36,538 nt of DNA. Source: an uncultured Desulfobacteraceae bacterium (GTDB taxonomy: Bacteria > Desulfobacterota > Desulfobacteria > Desulfobacterales > Desulfatirhabdiaceae). The stretch lies in the NCBI GenBank assembly GCA_903839535.1, contig CAIMCT010000298.1:1-36538 (forward strand), written 5' to 3'. A model generated the notes under the pieces. The model was given only the letters and a program-made list of their open reading frames with translations. It searched no databases and had not been told where the DNA came from. Positions within the stretch are counted from its first letter, which is position 1. Every line of letters begins with the position of its first letter. Position numbers and translations under genes: made by a program. Positions 25,160-36,447 of this stretch are shown one piece after another.

Positions 25160-27253
25160 TCACCGGAATGACTTGCTCTCCGGCGCTTCATCTTCGGTCG
25201 GAAGCATTATGTCGCTCCTTTCAATCCTGGAGTTTTTTGTTTTTCCAGTTTGCAGCGCACCCGGCTTGGCAGACAAGTCGCACAGGCAAGGGATTTCTTC
25301 AGTTGATACCGGTAAAAAAACCCGAAAAACACTGCCTCGGCCCTGTTTACTCTCCACCGTGATTCCCCCGCCGTATGCGCCTACAATCCCCAGTACAACG
25401 GACAACCCCAGACCACGGCCGGTAAAATTTGTGGTGAAAAACGGATCGAAGATATTATCTATATCCCCATCCGGAATTCCGTGGCCTTCATCCGCCACTT
25501 TCAGGCAGGCATAGGCGTTTTCCTTCGGCTGCCAGTTGATTGGGAATCGCTTTAAAGCCGGAATATCCGCCAGGGAAACCGTATTGACGGTCAGGTCAAT
25601 GGCGCTCTGGCTCTCACCGATAGCCTCACTGGCATTGGTGACCAGATTGACAAGAACCTGCTTTATCTGGTCTGCGTTCGCACAGATGACCGGACCCGAA
25701 GATGGGAAATCGGCCTTAAGCGCCAAACTTTTCGGGGCTGCCACCTGAAGCATGGACAGACTTTGACGGCAGATCTCGGATAGGTCCAGCGGTGCATGTT
25801 TGCCGCGCATTTGCCCCAGGTAAGTCAGCATCAGACCGCTGATTTCCGCGGCCTTGCGAGCCGCCTGCATGGCGGAGGCCAGGCTATCGATCGGATTTAA
25901 ACCCTGTGGCAGGTACAGGTCCATGACCATTTCGAGATTCCCCATCACAGCCTGGAGCTGGTTGTTGAAATGGTGGGCAATGGCCCCGGCCATGCGTCCC
26001 AGGCTTTCTGCTTTTTGAAGCTGCCGGTTCTGTGCTTCAAGTTCAGCCTTTTCCTCCTCCGCCTGTTTGCGCTCAGCAACCCCATGGCGTAGCCGCACGT
26101 TGATTCGATAGATGTAAACAGCTAATGTCGAAACGATAGCAATCGTCATGGTTGCGACAGCCATAAATACGTACAGCCAGCTACGATCCAGCGGTGGCGG
26201 ATTGGAATCATAGAGAAATCCCTTTAAGTTGAAATCCGGCTTCATCATGCCGAGTTCGGCGTATGTTTCGGCAATGTGGCGCCAGCGGCCCGGATTCATA
26301 TGTCCGATTTGCACCAAAGCCGTTTGCAGCAGCGGCACCATCTGGCTGGCTTCAAAGCGCAGGTGTTCAATGCTGTGCCTTTGGCTATAACTGGAATAAA
26401 TCAACTGTATCAGCTCCTCAGGGTTCTGCATGGCGTATTCCCACCCCTTCAGACTCGCTTCCCGGAATGCGTTCACCATTTCTGGCTTCAGCTTGAGCTG
26501 ACTCTCGGTGGTAAAGAGGTTGTCGCCGTAAAAATCAATGCCCACCGCGCGGGGTGAATAGAGCAAATACTCTCGCCCCGCCTTGTTCAGTTCAAAAGGT
26601 TCATCAGTGACGTAGGTGGACATGGCATCCACGTTCCCGGCGAGCAGGTCTTTTGTCTGAAAACCATGAGGAATCAGGGTGAACTTGCAGGAGGAAATCC
26701 CTTCTTTGCGCAGATATGCGTACAGTTCGGATGAATCAGGCTCAATCATGACCCTGCGACCGGCCAGGTCATGGATACTTTGCAGGCCACTCCGCCTGAT
26801 GGTCATGAGCGCCAGGGGAGAGTGTTGGAAGATCACCGCCAGGGCCACCACCGGCGCACCCTGCTCCCGCAGCAGCAGCAGATCAGTGGCGCTAACCCCG
26901 AACTCCGCCTTGCCCTGCAAAACATGCTGAACCGTATCCTCGCCCGGCTGACCAGGAATGATCTCCACATCCAGTCCTGCCGCCTGGTAATAGCCACGCA
27001 CCTGGGCTGCGTAATACCCTGCGAACTGGAACTGGTGCCGCCACTTGAGCTGCAGGCGCACCTTGTCGGCTGCAGCCGCAGAAAGCGGGTACAGCAGTAT
27101 AAGAAAAATCGCCAGGCAGAGACAAACATATCGACAGGAAACTTTTTCCTCCGCTTGTTGACGCAAATTATTCACATCCCGACATGCGCCATGCAGATGT
27201 CCCAGTTCAGCCGCAAACCGATTATGCATCCGGTGGAAATCATAGCCAGCCAT
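25160..27253 (-). CDS. Histidine kinase with NMT1/THI5-like substrate-binding sensor
   Basis: 697 residues. A hydrophobic signal/anchor (about 40-60) is followed by a periplasmic NMT1/SsuA-type solute-binding domain (about 62-310) starting VRLQLKWRHQFQFAGYYAA. A membrane span lies at about 360-385, then a coiled coil, a HisKA-type dimerisation helix with AGAIAHHFNNQLQAVMGN (second H likely the phosphoacceptor, about residue 420) and HATPase_c with VADEGHGIPD and GRGLGLSVV. Such binding proteins usually serve ABC importers for thiamine precursors, sulfonates or nitrate; here the module is a sensor. No receiver and no transporter genes lie nearby. The start is uncertain (27253 or 27229). It is 81 bp downstream of the sigma-54 activator on the same strand. 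Confidence 0.9.
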   Translation of the reverse strand: MAGYDFHRMHNRFAAELGHLHGACRDVNNLRQQAEEKVSCRYVCLCLAIFLILLYPLSAAAADKVRLQLKWRHQFQFAGYYAAQVRGYYQAAGLDVEIIPGQPGEDTVQHVLQGKAEFGVSATDLLLLREQGAPVVALAVIFQHSPLALMTIRRSGLQSIHDLAGRRVMIEPDSSELYAYLRKEGISSCKFTLIPHGFQTKDLLAGNVDAMSTYVTDEPFELNKAGREYLLYSPRAVGIDFYGDNLFTTESQLKLKPEMVNAFREASLKGWEYAMQNPEELIQLIYSSYSQRHSIEHLRFEASQMVPLLQTALVQIGHMNPGRWRHIAETYAELGMMKPDFNLKGFLYDSNPPPLDRSWLYVFMAVATMTIAIVSTLAVYIYRINVRLRHGVAERKQAEEEKAELEAQNRQLQKAESLGRMAGAIAHHFNNQLQAVMGNLEMVMDLYLPQGLNPIDSLASAMQAARKAAEISGLMLTYLGQMRGKHAPLDLSEICRQSLSMLQVAAPKSLALKADFPSSGPVICANADQIKQVLVNLVTNASEAIGESQSAIDLTVNTVSLADIPALKRFPINWQPKENAYACLKVADEGHGIPDGDIDNIFDPFFTTNFTGRGLGLSVVLGIVGAYGGGITVESKQGRGSVFRVFLPVSTEEIPCLCDLSAKPGALQTGKTKNSRIERSDIMLPTEDEAPESKSFR

Positions 27254-27334: not shown

Positions 27335-28708
27335 TCACGGAGAAAAAATCTCCGAATGAACATCAATTCCATATTTCCTGATGCGTTTCCATATCGTTAC
27401 CCGGCTTACTTCCAGAATTCGCGCAGCTTCGGACTGATTGCCACTTACCTGACGAAGGATTCGAATCAACTGCTCCCGCTTCCGCGTATTTTCCGGATGC
27501 TCCGTGGAAATTTTTGTCGCCCTGGTTTCCGGATGGGCGATTTTCACGGGCAGATGCCCAGCCTCGATCCACCCGCCGGAACACAGCACAAATGCGTATT
27601 CAATGGCATTGCGAAGTTCCCGAACATTTCCATGCCAGGAATAAACCATAAGTTTTTCCATGGCCTCGGAGGTAAGCCCCAGAATTTTTTTACCGCTTTT
27701 TTTCATGTTGTGTTCAATAAAATTCTGAACAATCATTGGAATATCTTCTTTTCGTTCGCAAAGCGTGGGACAATACAGCGGAAACACGTTGATCCGGAAA
27801 AATAGATCTTCCCGGAAAATACCCTGACTGATCAATTCGTCCAGATCCCTGTTGGTGGCTGAAATGATTCGGACATCGACCGGAATACTCTTATGATCTC
27901 CCACCCGCTCAATTTCCTTTTCCTCAAGAACCCGCAGCAGTTTCACCTGAGTCTTTAGTGGAATATCACCGATTTCATCCAGAAAAATAGTTCCTTCGTG
28001 AGCCGCTTCAAATCTGCCAGCCCGCGAGCGTTCAGCGCCGGTATAGGCGCCCTTCACATGTCCAAACAGCTCGCTTTCCAGAAGATTTTCATTCAGGGCT
28101 GCACAGTTTACCTTGACAAACGACTTGCTGCGCCGTAAGCTCACGTCATGGATGGCTCTTGCAACCAGTTCTTTCCCTGTACCACTGTCACCATGAATCA
28201 TCACCGGTGCATCCGAAAAAGCGACGCTTTCGATAAGTTCAAACAGTCGTTGCATAACTGGAGACTGTCCTAATATTCCCTGATATCCATCATCAACATG
28301 AAAGGTTTTGCGGAGAGACAGGATTTCCTGTTGCTGACGAACAATATCGGACATATCCTTAAACGTTTCCACTGCCCCAATTACACATCCGTCCGAGTCC
28401 CTCAGAACAGAGGCGTTCTTGATAATTTGGACCGACCGCCCGTCCTTTCGAGCAATAACACATTTCTTTGCCCGGGTTTCACCCTTTAAGAAAAGCTTGC
28501 ACCATTTTTCGCCAACGCCTTGGTCAAAGACATCACAACCTGTACAGTTTAACCCACGGCAATTGTTTCCGATTAACTCTACCGCCGAATAACCGGTAAG
28601 TTTTTCGGCCGCTGGGTTCACGGCGACAATATTGCCACCGGAATCGACAACCATGAGACCGTCCTGAAGGGTATCAACAATGGTTTTCCAGCATTTGGCG
28701 ATGTCCAT
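27335..28708 (-). CDS. PAS-domain sigma-54-dependent transcriptional activator
   Basis: 457 residues: PAS domain (about 8-125) with an unusual cysteine cluster (NCRGLNCTGC, then WCKLF and CVIARKDG), AAA+ domain (about 145-370) with GDSGTGKE Walker A, GAYTGA sigma-54-contact loop (Y in place of the common F), FLDEIGD Walker B and an arginine-finger region, and a C-terminal Fis-type helix-turn-helix (SGNQSEAARILEVSRVTIWKRI). There is no receiver domain, so it senses a signal directly through PAS; the cysteines suggest metal, FeS or thiol chemistry. It is divergent from the porin-molybdoenzyme operon, whose promoter has a sigma-54 site, so it is the likely activator of that operon. Confidence 0.95.
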   Translation of the reverse strand: MDIAKCWKTIVDTLQDGLMVVDSGGNIVAVNPAAEKLTGYSAVELIGNNCRGLNCTGCDVFDQGVGEKWCKLFLKGETRAKKCVIARKDGRSVQIIKNASVLRDSDGCVIGAVETFKDMSDIVRQQQEILSLRKTFHVDDGYQGILGQSPVMQRLFELIESVAFSDAPVMIHGDSGTGKELVARAIHDVSLRRSKSFVKVNCAALNENLLESELFGHVKGAYTGAERSRAGRFEAAHEGTIFLDEIGDIPLKTQVKLLRVLEEKEIERVGDHKSIPVDVRIISATNRDLDELISQGIFREDLFFRINVFPLYCPTLCERKEDIPMIVQNFIEHNMKKSGKKILGLTSEAMEKLMVYSWHGNVRELRNAIEYAFVLCSGGWIEAGHLPVKIAHPETRATKISTEHPENTRKREQLIRILRQVSGNQSEAARILEVSRVTIWKRIRKYGIDVHSEIFSP

Positions 28709-28977: not shown

Positions 28978-29018
28978 GGCTTCCCAGAAACAACACAAAC
29001 GATTAACAGGAGGTGGAC

Positions 29019-30731
29019 ATGAAGAAAAAAAAACCGGTAGGAACAGTGACTCGCAGAATTTTGACGGTTGTCCTGATTTCATTTTTTTTGATGATGGGAT
29101 TTCCGACTGCAAGTCCCGCAGATGATGTGGAAGATATGAAAAAACAGCTAAAAACGCTCAACGAGATGATGAAAACCTTACAGGAAAAACTGGACAAGGT
29201 GGAAAAACAAAGTGTCGGTGAAGAAACCGAAATCAAGGAAATGGACAAGCGCCTGAACAAGGCGGAAATGCACACGGCATCCGATAAAGTTTCCTTTGGC
29301 GTGGATCTGAGATCTGAGGCCCAGTCAATTCATTACGAAGATGTTCGCATTGCGCCGCCGGCGATGATCAATTCGTTTTTCATCCCTTCTTCACAGGGAG
29401 GATTTAACGGAGCGACCCAGCAGCAGATTCAGCAGGCCATGGCCGGCATGAAGGCGGCAGGCATGGTTCCGCCGCCCAACAGCTACAACGCGGATAATAA
29501 CATCATATACACCAGTCGGTTTCGCATGAACATGAAAGCCACGGTCAACCCTCATCTGGATTTTGCAGGCAGACTGGCCGCCTACAAAGTGTGGGGAGAC
29601 AGCTCCGGCGTTCAGTTCAATCATGGCAGCCTGGGGGATGTTACCTTTGATGGCAATACCTCCAGTCTTCCCCATGGGGACGCAGTCCATGTGGAGCGCG
29701 CCTATTTCAATTACAAGCAGGACATCAGCAGCGTTCCCATCAACTTTTCACTTGGAAGACGGCCTTCAACCGAAGGCCCTCCGCAGGAATACGGCAACTA
29801 CAGTATGGAAGGCGGCTCTCCCTTGGCCACCATCATCAACTGGCAGTTTGACGGTGCATCCCTGAACTTTGGCTTGGAAGATGTAACCGGCATTTCGGGT
29901 CAGGCTTTGAAACTTTGCTACGGAGTCGGCTTTGAAGGCGACTGGGGCAACAGCTATTCCATGACCAGCAGTTCGGATGTAAATGATGTTCACATGTTCG
30001 GCTTTATCGCTGATATCTTTGACAATGAAGCCACCAGCGCTGTTCTTAATTACGCCCATGCCTGGGATGTTACCGACGGATTTACGGGGCTTACGGTCAT
30101 GCCGTTTATTGTTTCCATAGATGGCAATAATAAATATAATTTTTCGCCAAACAGCGGCGGATATATCAGCCGTATGCAGCCATCCACAAATATCGGCGAC
30201 TGGGATGCCGCATCTTTGCTTTTAAAGACCAATCTACGTGAAAAACTGGCCAATATTGATTTGTTTTTAGCCCCCTCCTGGAGCCATACCAGCCCATCCC
30301 AGATATCCAAAAATCCTTATTACGCATTATTGGGGCAGGGCCTTTTGAGTTCAAATGGCAATCTTCAGTCCAGGGATGGTTACGGTATCTATGCCGGTGC
30401 AATCTTTCCCATGCCACTGGAAGCCAGGTTAGGTCTTGAATATAACTGGGGATCCAAATACTGGTTCAATTTCACCGGGGCCGAAGACTCCCTGGTCGGC
30501 AGCAAACTGGCGGCCAGAGGACAGGTTTTTGAAGGTTATTATATTCAGCCCATTTATAAAGACAATTTCTTTCTCAAACTCGGCGGCCAGTATTACGATT
30601 ATGACTATACCGGCAGTGGCAATCCACTGGGTGAACCCATCAGTATCACGGACGCAACGGCCTTTGATTCGCTTAATGCCATCATCGACAAAGTATGGGT
30701 TGCATACCTGTCGGCAACCATTCGCTTTTAG
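29019..30731 (+). CDS. Outer-membrane beta-barrel porin (DUF3373-like)
   Basis: 570 residues. A basic, hydrophobic N-terminal signal peptide ends around TASPADD. A coiled coil with heptad leucines (about 30-75, MKKQLKTLNEMMKTLQEKLD) is followed by a long beta-rich barrel that ends in aromatic-terminated strand LSATIRF, the classic outer-membrane C-terminus. The overall layout (coil, then VSFGVDLRSEAQSIHYED, then barrel) fits the DUF3373 porin-like family of Desulfobacterota and Campylobacterota. Start set at ATG 29019, with AGGAGG 5 nt before; the frame's earlier GTG lies in that site. First gene after the sigma-54 promoter; probably lets the substrate of the periplasmic molybdoenzyme enter. 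Confidence 0.88.
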   Translation: MKKKKPVGTVTRRILTVVLISFFLMMGFPTASPADDVEDMKKQLKTLNEMMKTLQEKLDKVEKQSVGEETEIKEMDKRLNKAEMHTASDKVSFGVDLRSEAQSIHYEDVRIAPPAMINSFFIPSSQGGFNGATQQQIQQAMAGMKAAGMVPPPNSYNADNNIIYTSRFRMNMKATVNPHLDFAGRLAAYKVWGDSSGVQFNHGSLGDVTFDGNTSSLPHGDAVHVERAYFNYKQDISSVPINFSLGRRPSTEGPPQEYGNYSMEGGSPLATIINWQFDGASLNFGLEDVTGISGQALKLCYGVGFEGDWGNSYSMTSSSDVNDVHMFGFIADIFDNEATSAVLNYAHAWDVTDGFTGLTVMPFIVSIDGNNKYNFSPNSGGYISRMQPSTNIGDWDAASLLLKTNLREKLANIDLFLAPSWSHTSPSQISKNPYYALLGQGLLSSNGNLQSRDGYGIYAGAIFPMPLEARLGLEYNWGSKYWFNFTGAEDSLVGSKLAARGQVFEGYYIQPIYKDNFFLKLGGQYYDYDYTGSGNPLGEPISITDATAFDSLNAIIDKVWVAYLSATIRF

Positions 30732-30756: not shown

Positions 30757-30853
30757 CACTCCCACTCCCAGCGGGAGGGGGCTGGGGGGATGGCAACTGG
30801 TTGGCATAACAGCATTTCCCCCCTCCCGACCTCCCCCCGCTGGGGGGAGGGGT
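30757..30853. repeat. GC-rich imperfect inverted repeat between porin and cytochrome genes
   Basis: CTCCCAGCGGGAGGGGGCTG at the left can pair with the CCTCCCCCCGCTGGGGGG region at the right around a loop containing GGTTGGCATAAC. The core resembles that of the 107-bp element family (CTCCCAGCGGGGGAGGG). It lies within the operon after the porin stop and could reduce read-through or mark an mRNA processing point. Confidence 0.7.
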
Positions 30854-30894
30854 TTGAACGATTACAATCAAACATGAATTTTAAGGAGAAAAAA

Positions 30895-31227
30895 ATGAAA
30901 CGCACTATTATGACCCTTGCTTCACTGGTGCTGGTTTTGGTCTTTGCCGGCAGCCTTCTGGCGACAGACAAAGGCAACAGCCGGAAAGGGAAATCCACTT
31001 TTCGAAAAGGCTGCCGCGATTGTCATGTGGAAGGCGGCAAAGCTCAGGAGATGAGTCCTTCCAACAAAACACAGGCCCAGTGGGATGCTGCCTTTGCCAA
31101 AGACAAATATAAGGGATTTCCATGCAAGGCGGAATGGGATAAGCTGACCCCTGAAGATATCGGCGATATTTACGCATACATGTATGAACACGCGTTTGAC
31201 TCGCCGTCGCCGGCAAAATGTAAATAG
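30895..31227 (+). CDS. Periplasmic monohaem c-type cytochrome
   Basis: 110 residues. A signal peptide (MKRTIMTLASLVLVLVFAGS) precedes a small domain with one haem-binding CRDCH motif at about residues 41-45; possible distal ligands are methionines at EMSP or YMYEH. C-terminal helix LTPEDIGDIYAYMYEHAF is typical of small class I cytochromes. AAGGAG seven or so bases before the ATG fixes the start; the longer frame begins in the repeat upstream. It lies between porin and molybdoenzyme and is a likely electron carrier for the complex. Confidence 0.92.
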   Translation: MKRTIMTLASLVLVLVFAGSLLATDKGNSRKGKSTFRKGCRDCHVEGGKAQEMSPSNKTQAQWDAAFAKDKYKGFPCKAEWDKLTPEDIGDIYAYMYEHAFDSPSPAKCK

Positions 31228-31292: not shown

Positions 31293-31334
31293 TTGCTTTT
31301 TAGCCTGACTACCACAAACAAAAGGAGACATTTA

Positions 31335-33539
31335 ATGACATCCCCCATCGAAACTCCGCTTTCGCGCCGCAGTTTTCTGAAATGGTCGGGAGCAGCCACT
31401 GCGGCAGCCGCAGTGGGCGGTAAGGCGCCGGTGCTGTACGCACTTACGCCCGATGAAACAAAGAAGTCTTTTGCAAAGCCCGACTCCAGGTATTCTGTGT
31501 GCGGCATGTGTCTGAATGCGTGCGGACTTGTGGCAAGGGTTGAAAACGGTGTGATCACCAAGCTGGATCCCAATCAAAAATTTCTGAAGTCCCGGGGGAT
31601 GCTCTGTGCACGCGGCAACGCCGGCATTCAGCAACTATATGATCCAGATCGCCTAAAATACCCGCTGCTTCGAAAAGGCGAGCGGGGAGAAGGCAAATGG
31701 GAACGGATTTCCTGGGACCAGGCTCTGGACCTTGCCGCCGCCAAAATGACGGAGATTGCCGAGAAATACACCCGCTGCGGGGTCATGTTTACGCCGGGTT
31801 CGGATTCCCAGTCCCTTTTTGTTCACTGGTTTGCCGAAGTGTTTGGCTCTTATAATGTCTCCACCCACGAATCTTCCTGTCTCTTAAGCCGGAACCGGGC
31901 TTATCTGGACACATTTGGCGAAGTGCCATTCGCAGACGTTCTTCATACCAAATACATCATCGTTGTCGGAGCTAATCCTTTTGAAGCCCTGATCACACCA
32001 GACAGTATCGATCTTATGACCGCAAAGAAAAACGGCTGCAAAATCGTTGTCCTTGATCCCAGGTTTACCAAGACCGCTGGCCTTGCCCATGAATGGCATC
32101 CCATCCGGCCAGGAACGGATATGGCGTTTTTTCTGGCCCTCAGTCATGTCATCACTTCGGAAAAACTGTATAACGAAACCTACTCTCAGGAAAAACTCTC
32201 TGGCATCGAACAACTGACCGAACACGTCCGCCAGTATTCTCCGGAATGGGCTGAAAAAGAATGCGAGATTCCTGCGGCCGATATTCGCCGTATAGCAAGA
32301 GAACTGGCTGCCGCCGCGCCAACGGCCATCGTCTATCCTGGCCGAAGAACTTCGGATTACGTCAATTCCACCCAGATCCGGCGATCCATGGCTATTGTCA
32401 ACGCGCTTCTTGGCAACTGGGACTCCCCTGGCGGCCTTCTGGCAGCCAGACAAGTCGGCCTTTCCGGCCCGGAACTTCCCGAAGCCCCTTTTTATGATGA
32501 CAACCCGGAACACCGGCTGGACAAAGGAATGGCTAAGATGATGTTTGAGGAGGAAGGCGCTTTCAAACACATGCGGGATGCCATCATCAGCCAAAAACCC
32601 TATCCTGTAAAAGGCTGGTTTGTATATCGATACAACCCCCTTCAGTCCGCAGCCAACCGTCAGAAAACCATCGAAATGATGAAACAACTTGATTTTGTTG
32701 TCACCGTGGACATTGCCATGAGCGACACTGCCTGGATGTCGGATCTGGTTCTGCCCGCACCCAGTGTACTGGAACGCCAGGACCCGGCAAGCGGCCTTCA
32801 GGGATCGGCGGCCTGCGCCTGTGTGGTGGCCCGTGATCCGGTGGTTCCGGCGCTGTTTGAATCCAGACCCGTATTCGAAATTCTCAAGGGGTTGGCAGGC
32901 CGAATGAAGCTGACCGAGTATTTTGACTTTACCATGGAGGAATACCGCAAGCAGCAGTTCAAACTCCTTCCTGATGCTGATCGAGCCATTCGGGAAGACG
33001 GGGTTTACTACAATCCCAGCAAGCTCTACGGAATTTATGAGGGTAAAATTTATAAAACCCTTTCCAAAAAGATTGAACTTTACAATGAGCGATATGCCCA
33101 GATGGGGGTTGATCCCATTCCGGTTTACCAGTCACCCAAACCCAATCCCGTAAATCAGTTTCGTCTTGTGGTGGGACGAAACGCCTATTTTACCCACTGT
33201 ACCACACAGAACAATGCTCTACTGAATGAGCTAATGCCGGACAATTCCCTGTGGATACACCCTGTGGCCGCCAAAAAACTGGATATAAAAGATGGCGAGC
33301 GGGTCGAGGTCACAAGCAATGCTGGAAAAGGCGAGCTTAGCGTCAGCCTGAACAATGGTATTCGGGAAGATACTGTCTATATGGCCAGCGGGTTTGGCGT
33401 ACTTTCAAAAGGACTGACCAGGGTTTATGGAAAAGGTGCCTGTATTGCGGAACTGATTGAAGATTATGCCGATGATATCTCCGGCAACATGGCCATGCAT
33501 GAAACCTTTATCCGTGTGGCCAAAAAAGGAGCGCTATGA
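31335..33539 (+). CDS. Tat-exported molybdopterin oxidoreductase catalytic subunit (PsrA/PhsA-like branch)
   Basis: 734 residues of the DMSO-reductase superfamily. A twin-arginine signal SRRSFLKW (residues 10-17) with an alanine-rich stretch directs it to the periplasm. The FeS cluster motif is C56-x2-C59-x3-C63-x27-C91. C182 in THESSCLLSRN is the likely molybdenum ligand, by analogy with polysulfide/thiosulfate/arsenate reductases. Further signatures are WHPIRPGTDMAFFLAL and SDLVLPAPSVLERQDP. The C-terminal dinucleotide-binding domain includes FRLVVGRNAYFTHC and a final AMHETFIRVAK. The start uses AAGGAG before ATG 31335. The next gene overlaps its stop (ATGA). The substrate is unknown: polysulfide, thiosulfate, tetrathionate or another oxyanion; a sulfur role is favoured by the rhodanese at the end of the operon. 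Confidence 0.92.
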   Translation: MTSPIETPLSRRSFLKWSGAATAAAAVGGKAPVLYALTPDETKKSFAKPDSRYSVCGMCLNACGLVARVENGVITKLDPNQKFLKSRGMLCARGNAGIQQLYDPDRLKYPLLRKGERGEGKWERISWDQALDLAAAKMTEIAEKYTRCGVMFTPGSDSQSLFVHWFAEVFGSYNVSTHESSCLLSRNRAYLDTFGEVPFADVLHTKYIIVVGANPFEALITPDSIDLMTAKKNGCKIVVLDPRFTKTAGLAHEWHPIRPGTDMAFFLALSHVITSEKLYNETYSQEKLSGIEQLTEHVRQYSPEWAEKECEIPAADIRRIARELAAAAPTAIVYPGRRTSDYVNSTQIRRSMAIVNALLGNWDSPGGLLAARQVGLSGPELPEAPFYDDNPEHRLDKGMAKMMFEEEGAFKHMRDAIISQKPYPVKGWFVYRYNPLQSAANRQKTIEMMKQLDFVVTVDIAMSDTAWMSDLVLPAPSVLERQDPASGLQGSAACACVVARDPVVPALFESRPVFEILKGLAGRMKLTEYFDFTMEEYRKQQFKLLPDADRAIREDGVYYNPSKLYGIYEGKIYKTLSKKIELYNERYAQMGVDPIPVYQSPKPNPVNQFRLVVGRNAYFTHCTTQNNALLNELMPDNSLWIHPVAAKKLDIKDGERVEVTSNAGKGELSVSLNNGIREDTVYMASGFGVLSKGLTRVYGKGACIAELIEDYADDISGNMAMHETFIRVAKKGAL

Positions 33540-34297
33540 ACAAACAACTGGCAATGGTCATTGATTCATCGGCATGTATTGACTGCAAGGCCTGTACCTT
33601 GGCATGCAAAGTGGAAAACAACGTGCCCGAAGGCAAATGGCGAAACTGGGTCAAACGAAGCGAGCCGGATTTCAATAAGCCGGACTGGATGGTTCACTCG
33701 GCATCCTTTCATTTTCAGCCAGGTGGCTGCATGCACTGCGAAGTTCCAACCTGCGTCCAGGCCTGCCCGACGGGAGCTACCTACAAAGATGAAAAAGATG
33801 GCGCGGTCAAGGTTGATCCCAAGCTCTGCATCGGTTGCGGAAGCTGTATTCCTGCCTGCCCCTACGGTGCCAGGTACCGGCACCCAACCAGGAACATCGT
33901 AGATAAATGCGATTACTGCGAAAAACGGCGGGCGCGCGGAGAACTTCCAGCCTGTGTGGTTACTTGTCCAACAAAAGCCAGGGTCTTTGGAGACATAAGC
34001 GATCCCAAAAGCGATGCGGCTTTGCTGCTAAAGAAAAACCAAAGTGTTCGCGTCATCAACAAGGAGTCGGACACCAAACCCAACATGTACTATCTGTCTG
34101 CAACAGCGCCCTTAAACTGGCCGGTCAAAGCCAGAATGCCAGATCCCATTCAGTTGTGGAAAATGGCTGGCCCCCTGATCTGGGGCATTGTGGGACTTAA
34201 TGCGATAGGAGTTCTGATTATGCTGGGAAAGCAGATTCTGATGAATGACAAAGCCCCCGAAACCGATGAATCCCATGAGGAAACGAGGCAATCATGA
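33536..34297 (+). CDS. Four-cluster ferredoxin subunit of the molybdoenzyme complex
   Basis: 253 residues. Sixteen cysteines in four groups bind four 4Fe-4S clusters: CIDCKACTLAC, CMHCEVPTCVQACP, CIGCGSCIPACP and CDYCEKRRARGELPACVVTCP. It is the electron-transfer B subunit typical of the DMSO-reductase superfamily (DmsB/PhsB/FdnH type). A C-terminal hydrophobic helix (about 208-232) should anchor it in the membrane, as in formate dehydrogenase-N. ATGA overlap with the catalytic gene and with the cytochrome b gene makes all three translationally coupled. No Tat signal; it probably travels with the catalytic subunit. Confidence 0.95.
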   Translation: MNKQLAMVIDSSACIDCKACTLACKVENNVPEGKWRNWVKRSEPDFNKPDWMVHSASFHFQPGGCMHCEVPTCVQACPTGATYKDEKDGAVKVDPKLCIGCGSCIPACPYGARYRHPTRNIVDKCDYCEKRRARGELPACVVTCPTKARVFGDISDPKSDAALLLKKNQSVRVINKESDTKPNMYYLSATAPLNWPVKARMPDPIQLWKMAGPLIWGIVGLNAIGVLIMLGKQILMNDKAPETDESHEETRQS

Positions 34298-35013
34298 CAC
34301 AAACACAAATCCATCGTCACACCCGACTGTCCATTTTCATGCACTGGTTTAATGCCGGATGCTGGATTTTTCTGCTTTTAACCGGCCTGGGCCTGATCCA
34401 AAACGACGACCTGCAGCCATTTACATCATGGCCTACGATATTGCGAATTGTGTTCGGCGGCGGCGCAAATCTGCTTTTGGCTCATGAAATTGTTGGCGTT
34501 ACCTGGGCGGGCGGATTTTTCTTATATGGAATTGTCCGGCTGAAATCCGATGTCCTTCCCTTCTTCCGCGAAATCTTTAACGTTAATATCCATCGGGACT
34601 TTCTGTGGTTGGTTGCCAAGGGAATCCAGATGACCCTTGGATATCGGGCGCTTGGTGTCATTGCTGAAAAATTTGGTTTCAGCCCCGTAATTCCGGATCA
34701 GGGGTTTTACAACATCGGACAGAAAATATTCGCCGTGCCGGCGGTATTTGGCGGAATAGTCATTGTGGCGTCCGGCATCACCATGATTCTCTCCCAGATT
34801 GGCATGGCGAGTACCGAGCTGGTTCAATGGGCGATCCTGGTTCATTTTATCACGGTCGGGCTGGTGTTTGCCGGTCTTCTCATTCATGTCTTCATGGCAT
34901 CAATTGCAGCCGGCGAGCAGCCTGCCTTTATTTCCATGTTTACCGGATCGGTTCCCGAAGATTACGCACGGCATCACCACAAGCTGTGGCTGGATGAGGT
35001 CAAAAAGAGTTGA
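34294..35013 (+). CDS. Membrane cytochrome b subunit (formate-dehydrogenase gamma-like)
   Basis: 239 residues with four membrane helices: FMHWFNAGCWIFLLLTGLGL, LLLAHEIVGVTWAGGFFLYG, FAVPAVFGGIVIVASGITM and ILVHFITVGLVFAGLLIHVF. Histidines in helices 1, 2 and 4 are candidate haem b ligands. The layout is that of the FdnI/PhsC-type di-haem quinone-interacting cytochrome b. It should exchange electrons between menaquinone and the ferredoxin subunit. Overlaps the ferredoxin gene by ATGA; the rhodanese gene follows after 13 nt. Confidence 0.92.
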   Translation: MTQTQIHRHTRLSIFMHWFNAGCWIFLLLTGLGLIQNDDLQPFTSWPTILRIVFGGGANLLLAHEIVGVTWAGGFFLYGIVRLKSDVLPFFREIFNVNIHRDFLWLVAKGIQMTLGYRALGVIAEKFGFSPVIPDQGFYNIGQKIFAVPAVFGGIVIVASGITMILSQIGMASTELVQWAILVHFITVGLVFAGLLIHVFMASIAAGEQPAFISMFTGSVPEDYARHHHKLWLDEVKKS

Positions 35014-35026
35014 GGTTGTTTCTGTC

Positions 35027-36088
35027 ATGCTGAGAATTGGACTCAAGAATACCAGGAATAATTTTTGGGTCTGGTTTTATCCCTTAGCGCTGATTCCAAT
35101 TCTGGTTCTGGTGCTTGGATTCCTGACTGCTGCCGCAACCGGCAGCCGGGAGGAACCAGCATGGCTTCAGCAGGCCATGGACGAAGCCAAACAAGACGGG
35201 TATGAACTGATTACCGCTCCCAGGTTGAAAGCCCTTTACGAATCCGGAAAAGACTTTGCCATTATTGATGTCCGGCCCGAATATGAATATCGTGACGGAC
35301 ATCTTTCCAATGCCGGAAGTCTGGAGTTTGATCTGGGGGATAAGCTCGAATTGAAGCCTGAAAAAGAAGCAACTCTTATCCATCTTCTGGGACCGGATAA
35401 ACAGCGAACAGTCGTGTTCTACTGCCGAAGCTTCGCCTGACTGCGAAGCTCCATTGCGGCCCGGTGGGCTGTGCGGCTGGGATATCAAAACATCCTGCGG
35501 CTTCCTGAAGGGTATTTTGGGTGGAAATCTTTTTTGCCAGACAAATCTCAGCCCGTAGATACCGTACAAAAATTAGGAAGTGGAGATGAATTTCCTTCTT
35601 GCCAGCTTGTGATTCTGTATGATGAAACCGACAGAGCCTATCTAAAAATCCAGAGCCTGCAAAAAAACTTTGCTCTGGAAGATGTGGGCTGCGAATATCT
35701 ATATATCGTGCTTTTCAATGAAAGATGCCTTGCCTGCGTGGATGATGTCAAAATATTCAAGACGTTATATCATCAAATGAATGCCAACCCCTATCTTTCG
35801 GACAAGGTCAAACTCCTGGCCATCGGTGCCGGCAGTAAAAAAAGGGGGATCATTGCTTTCAAAAAAGAAAATGCCATTCCCTATCCGCTTTTTGGAGATG
35901 AGAACCGGAGCATTTTCTCCTGCCTCGGAAACCCGGTTTTGCCCACATCCTACCTTGTTCAGATTCAGCCAGGCGGCAGAAGACAAATTCTGTTCGTTCA
36001 GCAGGATCATGTTAGCAATGTCGAAATACTCGTCCAGAAAATCACATCTCTTGTGAAAGACACGGAACTGCCCAAGAATCGGTATTAA
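35027..36088 (+). CDS. Probable selenoprotein: membrane-anchored rhodanese-thioredoxin fusion (UGA = Sec)
   Basis: Read through the in-frame TGA at 35438-35440, this is a 353-residue protein. Residues 15-37 form an N-terminal membrane anchor. A rhodanese domain (about 57-170) has FAIIDVRPEYEYRDGHL and the loop YCRSFA-U138-LRSSIAARWAVRLGY. The TGA takes the place of the second cysteine in relatives with a YC-x4-C-x2-S-x2-AA loop. A thioredoxin-like domain (about 175-353) has C234-LA-C237 and a likely cis-proline at 306 (LPTSYLV). Both halves are in one frame with no other stop. A hairpin with a GGU loop follows the TGA. An automated caller would split it into two genes (stop 35440; new GTG start 35471). 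It is the last gene of the molybdoenzyme operon and likely acts in the periplasm on sulfane sulfur or thiols. The alternative is a simple nonsense mutation. Confidence 0.82.
35429..35480 (+). promoter_or_regulatory. Candidate bacterial SECIS region
   Basis: Hairpin GGCCC (35458-35462), loop GGU, GGGCU (35466-35470), extended through internal loops by GC/GC (35456-35457 with 35473-35474) and CCA/UGG (35451-35453 with 35478-35480). The apical G is 22-23 nt after the UGA, within the range of bacterial SECIS elements, and GU in the loop is the known SelB-contact feature. In addition AGCUUCGC (35429-35436) and GCGAAGCU (35443-35450) pair perfectly, placing the UGA in a 6-nt loop. The UGA is followed by C. 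Confidence 0.65.
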
Positions 36089-36334: not shown

Positions 36335-36340
36335 ATCAGT

Positions 36341-36447
36341 TATACTGCGAACTGGCATAATTTTACGTTTTTGATCCCCCACCCCAACCCTCCCCCGCTG
36401 GGAGAGGGAGTTTATGAAAAGCGCAGATTATGCCAGTTCGCAGTATA
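36341..36447 (-). repeat. 107-bp inverted-repeat element, copy 4 (inverted)
   Basis: Reverse complement is identical to copy 3 at 20338-20444. It lies 6 bp from the terminator hairpin. After it (36448-36538) no gene is recognisable within the window. Confidence 0.93.

Follow-up and report, generated by a model that had tools for sequence, protein, structure and literature searches.

The sulfurtransferase Sud works with a Psr-type molybdoenzyme. In Wolinella succinogenes, Sud is a periplasmic protein that carries polysulfide chains (PMC3397948), and enzymes of the Psr type act on the periplasmic side, where their substrates are polysulfide, thiosulfate or selenite (PMC10100899). Rhodanese-domain genes are included in the respiratory selenite reductase (srr) operon of Bacillus selenitireducens (PMC12481199), and in Geobacter sulfurreducens a rhodanese-like gene beside a porin-like gene (ExtH/ExtI) has been tied to selenite reduction (PMC5877670). 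Rhodanese-like selenoproteins are known in five forms, including form 1, which has the motif UxxS (WP_010941598.1; Zhang and Gladyshev 2005), and TsoB, which has the motif UxxxxU (2026 review, PMC13188914 Table 1).

The window analysed here, a stretch of 36,538 nucleotides from an uncultured Desulfobacteraceae bacterium, carries a gene predicted to encode a rhodanese domain with one selenocysteine (Sec) fused to a ResA-like domain. The gene stands in an operon with a gene for a Tat-exported molybdopterin oxidoreductase, designated MoA. The features of the locus are shown in Table 1.

Table 1. Genes, codons and motifs of the seleno-rhodanese locus, in window coordinates
Feature	Position	Strand	Remarks
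Divergent sigma-54 PAS activator, probable operon regulator	27335..28708	-	PF00158 2.5e-72
DUF3373 outer-membrane porin-like protein	29013..30731	+	PF11853 3.6e-120
Small monohaem cytochrome c	30790..31227	+	PF13442 6.6e-8; likely start ATG 30895; operon-conserved
MoA, Tat-exported molybdopterin oxidoreductase, PsrA/PhsA/SrrA type (predicted)	31293..33539	+	Likely start ATG 31335
PsrB/TtrB-type multi-[4Fe-4S] subunit	33536..34297	+	PF13247 2e-25; operon-conserved
Cytochrome b561 / FdhI-like membrane subunit	34294..35013	+	PF01292 2.1e-14; TIGR01583 below cut-off; operon-conserved
Sec-rhodanese / ResA-like fusion gene (predicted)	35027..36088	+	353 aa, read through one UGA
TGC codon for Cys133, presumed catalytic (persulfide) rhodanese cysteine	35423..35425	+	Invariant in alignment
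UGA codon for predicted Sec138, second chalcogen residue of YC-x4-U-x2-S loop	35438..35440	+	
Candidate SECIS apical hairpin GGCCC-GGT-GGGCT	35458..35470	+	Loop starts 22 bases past UGA codon
CLAC (C234-x2-C237) redox motif, ResA-like domain	35726..35737	+	Invariant in 12 fused homologues; fold match

Among the known selenoproteins, form 1 resembles the fusion protein in its Pfam Rhodanese domain, its single Sec and the x-x-S that follows it (here U138-L-R-S141), but the form 1 protein (WP_010941598.1), compared by motif description only, is listed without a ResA-like domain or an operon partner. TsoB has a homologous rhodanese domain, with TsoB-like genes being 34-44% identical, and also has Sec at the second loop position. 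It differs in that both loop positions are Sec and in that its C-terminus is a long DsbD-like membrane region, where the present protein has Cys133 at the first position and a ResA-like C-terminus. Against the TsoB model (NF045694) the fusion protein scored 111.3 bits, over residues 25-182 only, with a cut-off of 805, and membership of that family was rejected on the cut-off, the number of Sec residues (one versus two) and the C-terminus. A TsoB-like gene, in which a rhodanese region with two in-frame TGAs is part of a long open frame, occurs elsewhere in the source genome (G000:C428:32236-32703) and in many relatives.

Among the respiratory systems, Sud is similar as an exported sulfurtransferase paired with a Psr-type molybdoenzyme, a likeness drawn by description only, whereas the fusion protein contains Sec, carries a ResA-like domain in the same chain and is encoded in an operon of another kind. 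SrrE/SrrF, likewise compared by description, are encoded in an operon together with a Tat-exported molybdoenzyme of the PsrA/PhsA/SrrA type, but come from another phylum, have no reported Sec, and belong to an operon described without a porin or cytochrome c. The ext cluster shares the rhodanese-like and porin-like neighbours and also holds a selenoprotein (ExtKL). As described it has multihaem cytochromes and no molybdoenzyme, ExtI is assigned to another porin family, and its selenoprotein is a cytochrome, unlike the seleno-rhodanese here. Neither the fusion of a Sec-rhodanese with a ResA-like domain nor an operon of this type was found described in the literature searched (coverage without Haft and Tolstoy 2025). 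The suggestion in the initial annotation that the combination may be undescribed thus holds for the fusion and the operon type but not for its parts, as rhodanese selenoproteins (PMC13188914) and the pairing of a rhodanese with a Psr/Srr enzyme (PMC12481199) were already known.

Translation of positions 35027-36088 gave exactly one internal stop, the TGA at 35438 (codon 138), and a final TAA, in agreement with the single interrupted frame first proposed. The 215 codons that follow the TGA would remain open by chance with a probability of ~1e-5 (random frame of the same composition). The loop residues Y132-C133-R-S-F-A-U138-L-R-S141 read YC-x4-U-x2-S, which places the TGA, as claimed, at the cysteine position of a YC-x4-C-x2-S loop. 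The Pfam Rhodanese match (PF00581, 3.8e-15) extends over residues 64-168 of the read-through protein and so covers codon 138, in keeping with a rhodanese domain that is complete across the TGA; a weak AhpC/TSA match lies behind it. Without Sec decoding (table 11) the gene becomes two open reading frames (ORFs), 34799-35440, which ends at the TGA, and 35471-36088, which has a GTG start, and such annotation would list a truncated rhodanese and an orphan redoxin.

The GTG-start ORF lies within ~30 bases downstream of the TGA, as would be expected if the TGA were a true stop, either in a gene that has decayed or between two separate proteins, the second begun by restart at GTG 35471 after termination. 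A true stop at this point would, however, cut through the active site of the rhodanese fold, and the homologues make it highly improbable. Among 18 operon-borne loci, the window's own included, a TGA stands at exactly the Cys column in 13 (the window, L061, L062, L063, L064, L066, L053, L052, L058, L054, L069, L102 and L104), and the remaining five have Cys in an unbroken frame (L065, L101, L103, L105 and L106). No residue other than Cys or Sec was found at column 138 among these 18 operon homologues, as had been anticipated from the sequence of the window. The TGA is kept in four close relatives at a protein identity of 75-83% and is invariant among 10 aligned Sec homologues; C133, C/U138, C192, C234 and C237 are invariant among the aligned homologues. 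In comparisons of five close relatives, the codons past the TGA had dN/dS values of ~0.10-0.27 at synonymous distances of 0.45-1.3, so the downstream part is protein under purifying selection, which persists past the supposed stop.

Within a single genus, Sec is present in two species (G195 and G333) and Cys in two others (G415 and G452), and the Sec pair and the Cys pair form two separate, well-supported pairs on the rhodanese-domain tree, whose long branches give the number of Sec/Cys switches only roughly. Since sister species naturally carry either Cys or Sec, what selenium contributes to sulfur transfer can be tested directly.

The source genome (5.66 Mb, 580 contigs, 99% complete) contains selA (600 bits, cut-off 268), selB (371 bits, cut-off 242), two selD genes, both interrupted by an in-frame TGA (GAGUAS; TCGUAA), and a tRNA-Sec (Rfam 77 bits; ARAGORN tRNA-SeC, anticodon TCA), so that the sel genes, for which a search had been advised, are all present. 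The two selD genes (L010 and L011, on contigs C184 and C397) have their TGA near the start, and both selenophosphate synthetases are apparently selenoproteins themselves. A selA gene was also found in 13/13 further operon-bearing genomes checked, including those with the Cys form.

Reading of the UGA by a route other than Sec (as Trp or Gly), or a sequencing error, would be compatible with the weak support from the SECIS element, for which the candidate hairpin with a GGU loop was assessed in several ways. The hairpin falls within published bSECIS constraints and is kept in the close relatives of the window, and a hairpin scan ranked the window site among the best 2.8% of control codons. Shuffling of synonymous codons, a fairer null than control codons, placed the window site at 7% and other sites at 4-87%, and Cys homologues scored equally well. 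None of the folding z-scores at 10 Sec sites (single-strand) was significant apart from that of L054, and RNA covariation was weak among these related sequences. Because the shuffle removes the hairpin signal, the SECIS was not counted as support for Sec. Against a non-Sec reading, Cys is the only alternative at column 138, which is the signature of Sec, and the cognate tRNA-Sec is present. TGA is the ordinary stop of 15/25 long ORFs in the window, which excludes general recoding of UGA, and genome-wide recoding was rejected on this ground. The identical TGA recurs in 13 loci, many independent metagenome assemblies among them, so the sequencing error named as a possible refutation can be set aside. 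Misreading and sequencing error together are the least probable of the explanations considered. On these comparative data the fusion gene is almost certainly that of a real selenoprotein, in which UGA 35438 would be decoded as Sec by the organism's own SelA, SelB, SelD and tRNA-Sec.

In an AlphaFold2 model (12 homologues, mean pLDDT 76.5) the rhodanese domain was predicted with confidence for the most part, and a second domain followed it. The second domain matched ResA, DsbE-type and related thiol-disulfide oxidoreductases (VIA Z ~16, rmsd 2.1-2.5, ~136 residues); the fold matches listed all fell on this C-terminal domain, and the rhodanese fold was assigned from Pfam, sequence matches to solved rhodaneses and the secondary structure of the model. 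The CxxC thioredoxin domain of the initial annotation was therefore upheld, as a fold of the ResA/TlpA type in which C234-x2-C237 is invariant in 12 homologues. The ResA-like domain is absent from 6/18 homologues and is thus not essential. The proposed membrane anchor was borne out only in part: the N-terminus of the fusion protein is hydrophobic, but the N-termini of shorter homologues resemble cleavable signal peptides, and the anchor may therefore be a cleavable signal peptide instead. Family knowledge suggests that the product is exported and periplasmic.

The rhodanese gene lies in an operon for a molybdoenzyme of the Psr/Phs/Srr type in 18/18 loci, so the molybdoenzyme operon noted around it in the window is a linkage kept throughout. 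The set of cytochrome c, MoA, Fe-S subunit, membrane cytochrome and rhodanese is kept in related loci up to the contig ends. The operon begins with the DUF3373 gene in the close relatives of the window and in L052, L053 and L057, and the sigma-54 activator adjoins the operon in many related loci. The gene adjoining this regulator in the window (25160-27253, minus strand) encodes a sensor kinase joined to an apparent THI5/NMT1-type periplasmic binding region; no more than the first 28 of its residues were found again in the fetched loci of the closest relatives (L061 and L063). Genes for TorD-like chaperones flank many copies of the operon; the contig of the window stops shortly past the rhodanese gene. 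To our knowledge, a pathway has been assigned to only a minority of the predicted bacterial selenoproteins; conserved operon structure ties the predicted fusion selenoprotein to one respiratory enzyme.

MoA has a Tat signal, a [4Fe-4S] domain, and a Cys aligned with the residue that we take to be the Mo-ligand Cys of the Thermus polysulfide/thiosulfate reductase, which is also its nearest match (3.1e-116). Against the PhsA model it scored 564.5 bits, below the equivalog cut-off of 694, and the homologue in L101 scored 568.7. These matches point to a molybdoenzyme of the Psr/Phs/Srr type, with PsrA, PhsA and SrrA taken together as one class, and in the desulfobacterial relatives MoA probably respires sulfur or selenium compounds. 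Of the twelve genomes searched, eight have the rhodanese, together with a MoA that is 67-92% identical; in the other four, which lack the rhodanese, the MoA homologue is only ~36% identical. No rhodanese gene was found within the 19 kb fetched around the L115 operon, whose MoA is 60% identical, and none in the loci fetched for the L111 and L112 operons (MoA 51% and 42% identical, respectively). The L115 operon indicates that MoA may work without a rhodanese. In L054 (L054:4474-8753), L107, L109, L113, L114 and L115 the operon takes an alternative form: the places of the porin and cytochrome b are taken by a HybA-like Fe-S protein and an NrfD-like membrane protein that is very long. In L054 the rhodanese gene is present beside a membrane subunit of this alternative kind.

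Most of the related operons encode an additional protein with three rhodanese domains. In three of them (L052:10360-11688, L057:5784-7112 and L054:12131-13270) its reading frame is interrupted by a single TGA, which takes the place of the second Cys in the C-x4-C motif (FYCGGPT-U, FYCEGMK-U). The gene in L107 (L107:11259-12386) has two such TGAs, the first domain and the second holding one each (FYCGGPT-U-KLSH, FYCGGYT-U-KLSH), and the N-terminus of its product is lipobox-like. The three-rhodanese proteins with TGA are candidates for a second selenoprotein of the related operons. No NCBIfam model scored above its cut-off for the fusion protein or for the multi-rhodanese proteins. Where genes of the latter kind contain one TGA or two, annotation lacking Sec decoding would split them in the same way as the fusion gene, and surveys of sulfur-reduction genes would miss genes broken in this manner.

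We consider it probable that the UGA is decoded as Sec and that the protein is a dedicated periplasmic chalcogen-transfer partner of the Psr/Phs/Srr-type molybdoenzyme of its operon, a counterpart of Sud in Wolinella or of the srr rhodaneses; the chalcogen-transfer role of the fusion protein is moderately likely. The UGA decoding, the domain structure and the operon linkage come from computation, and family knowledge is the source for the periplasmic location, for sulfur or selenium as the cargo, for which way it is transferred and for the roles of the residues. Cys133 would be loaded with sulfane sulfur, or with zero-valent selenium, to give a persulfide. Sec138, which closes the same loop, would form a Cys-Sec selenenylsulfide and so speed transfer to MoA or release, and the CxxC domain, where present, would reset the Cys-Sec bond.

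The main rival accepts the selenoprotein as real and gives it a role in redox protection, or in cofactor or thiol maintenance, such that thiols of the exported molybdoenzyme or of cytochrome c stay reduced, with no transfer of substrate. The ResA-like CxxC domain does resemble the thiol-disulfide oxidoreductases of cytochrome maturation, the operon has a c-type cytochrome, and a Cys-Sec pair would make a good peroxidase or disulfide reductase. The part of the protein that is kept everywhere is nevertheless the rhodanese, the CxxC domain being the one that some homologues lack, and the further, triple-rhodanese protein encoded in most related operons points to sulfane-sulfur chemistry. A maintenance role is accordingly rated as unlikely, and chalcogen transfer in partnership with MoA is preferred.

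More tentatively, and with some doubt, the operons may form a selenium-dependent respiratory module in which an uncharacterised MoA clade is served by dedicated seleno-rhodaneses, sometimes two per operon and with up to two Sec per protein, such that selenium supply would govern the respiration of sulfur (or selenite) in Desulfobacterota.

Just past the operon in the window, a near-perfect inverted repeat (TTATACTGCGAACTGGCATAAT) is located at 36340-36361 and 36427-36447 and encloses a CCCTCCCCCGCTGGGAGAGGG stretch; it could represent a small mobile or repetitive element.
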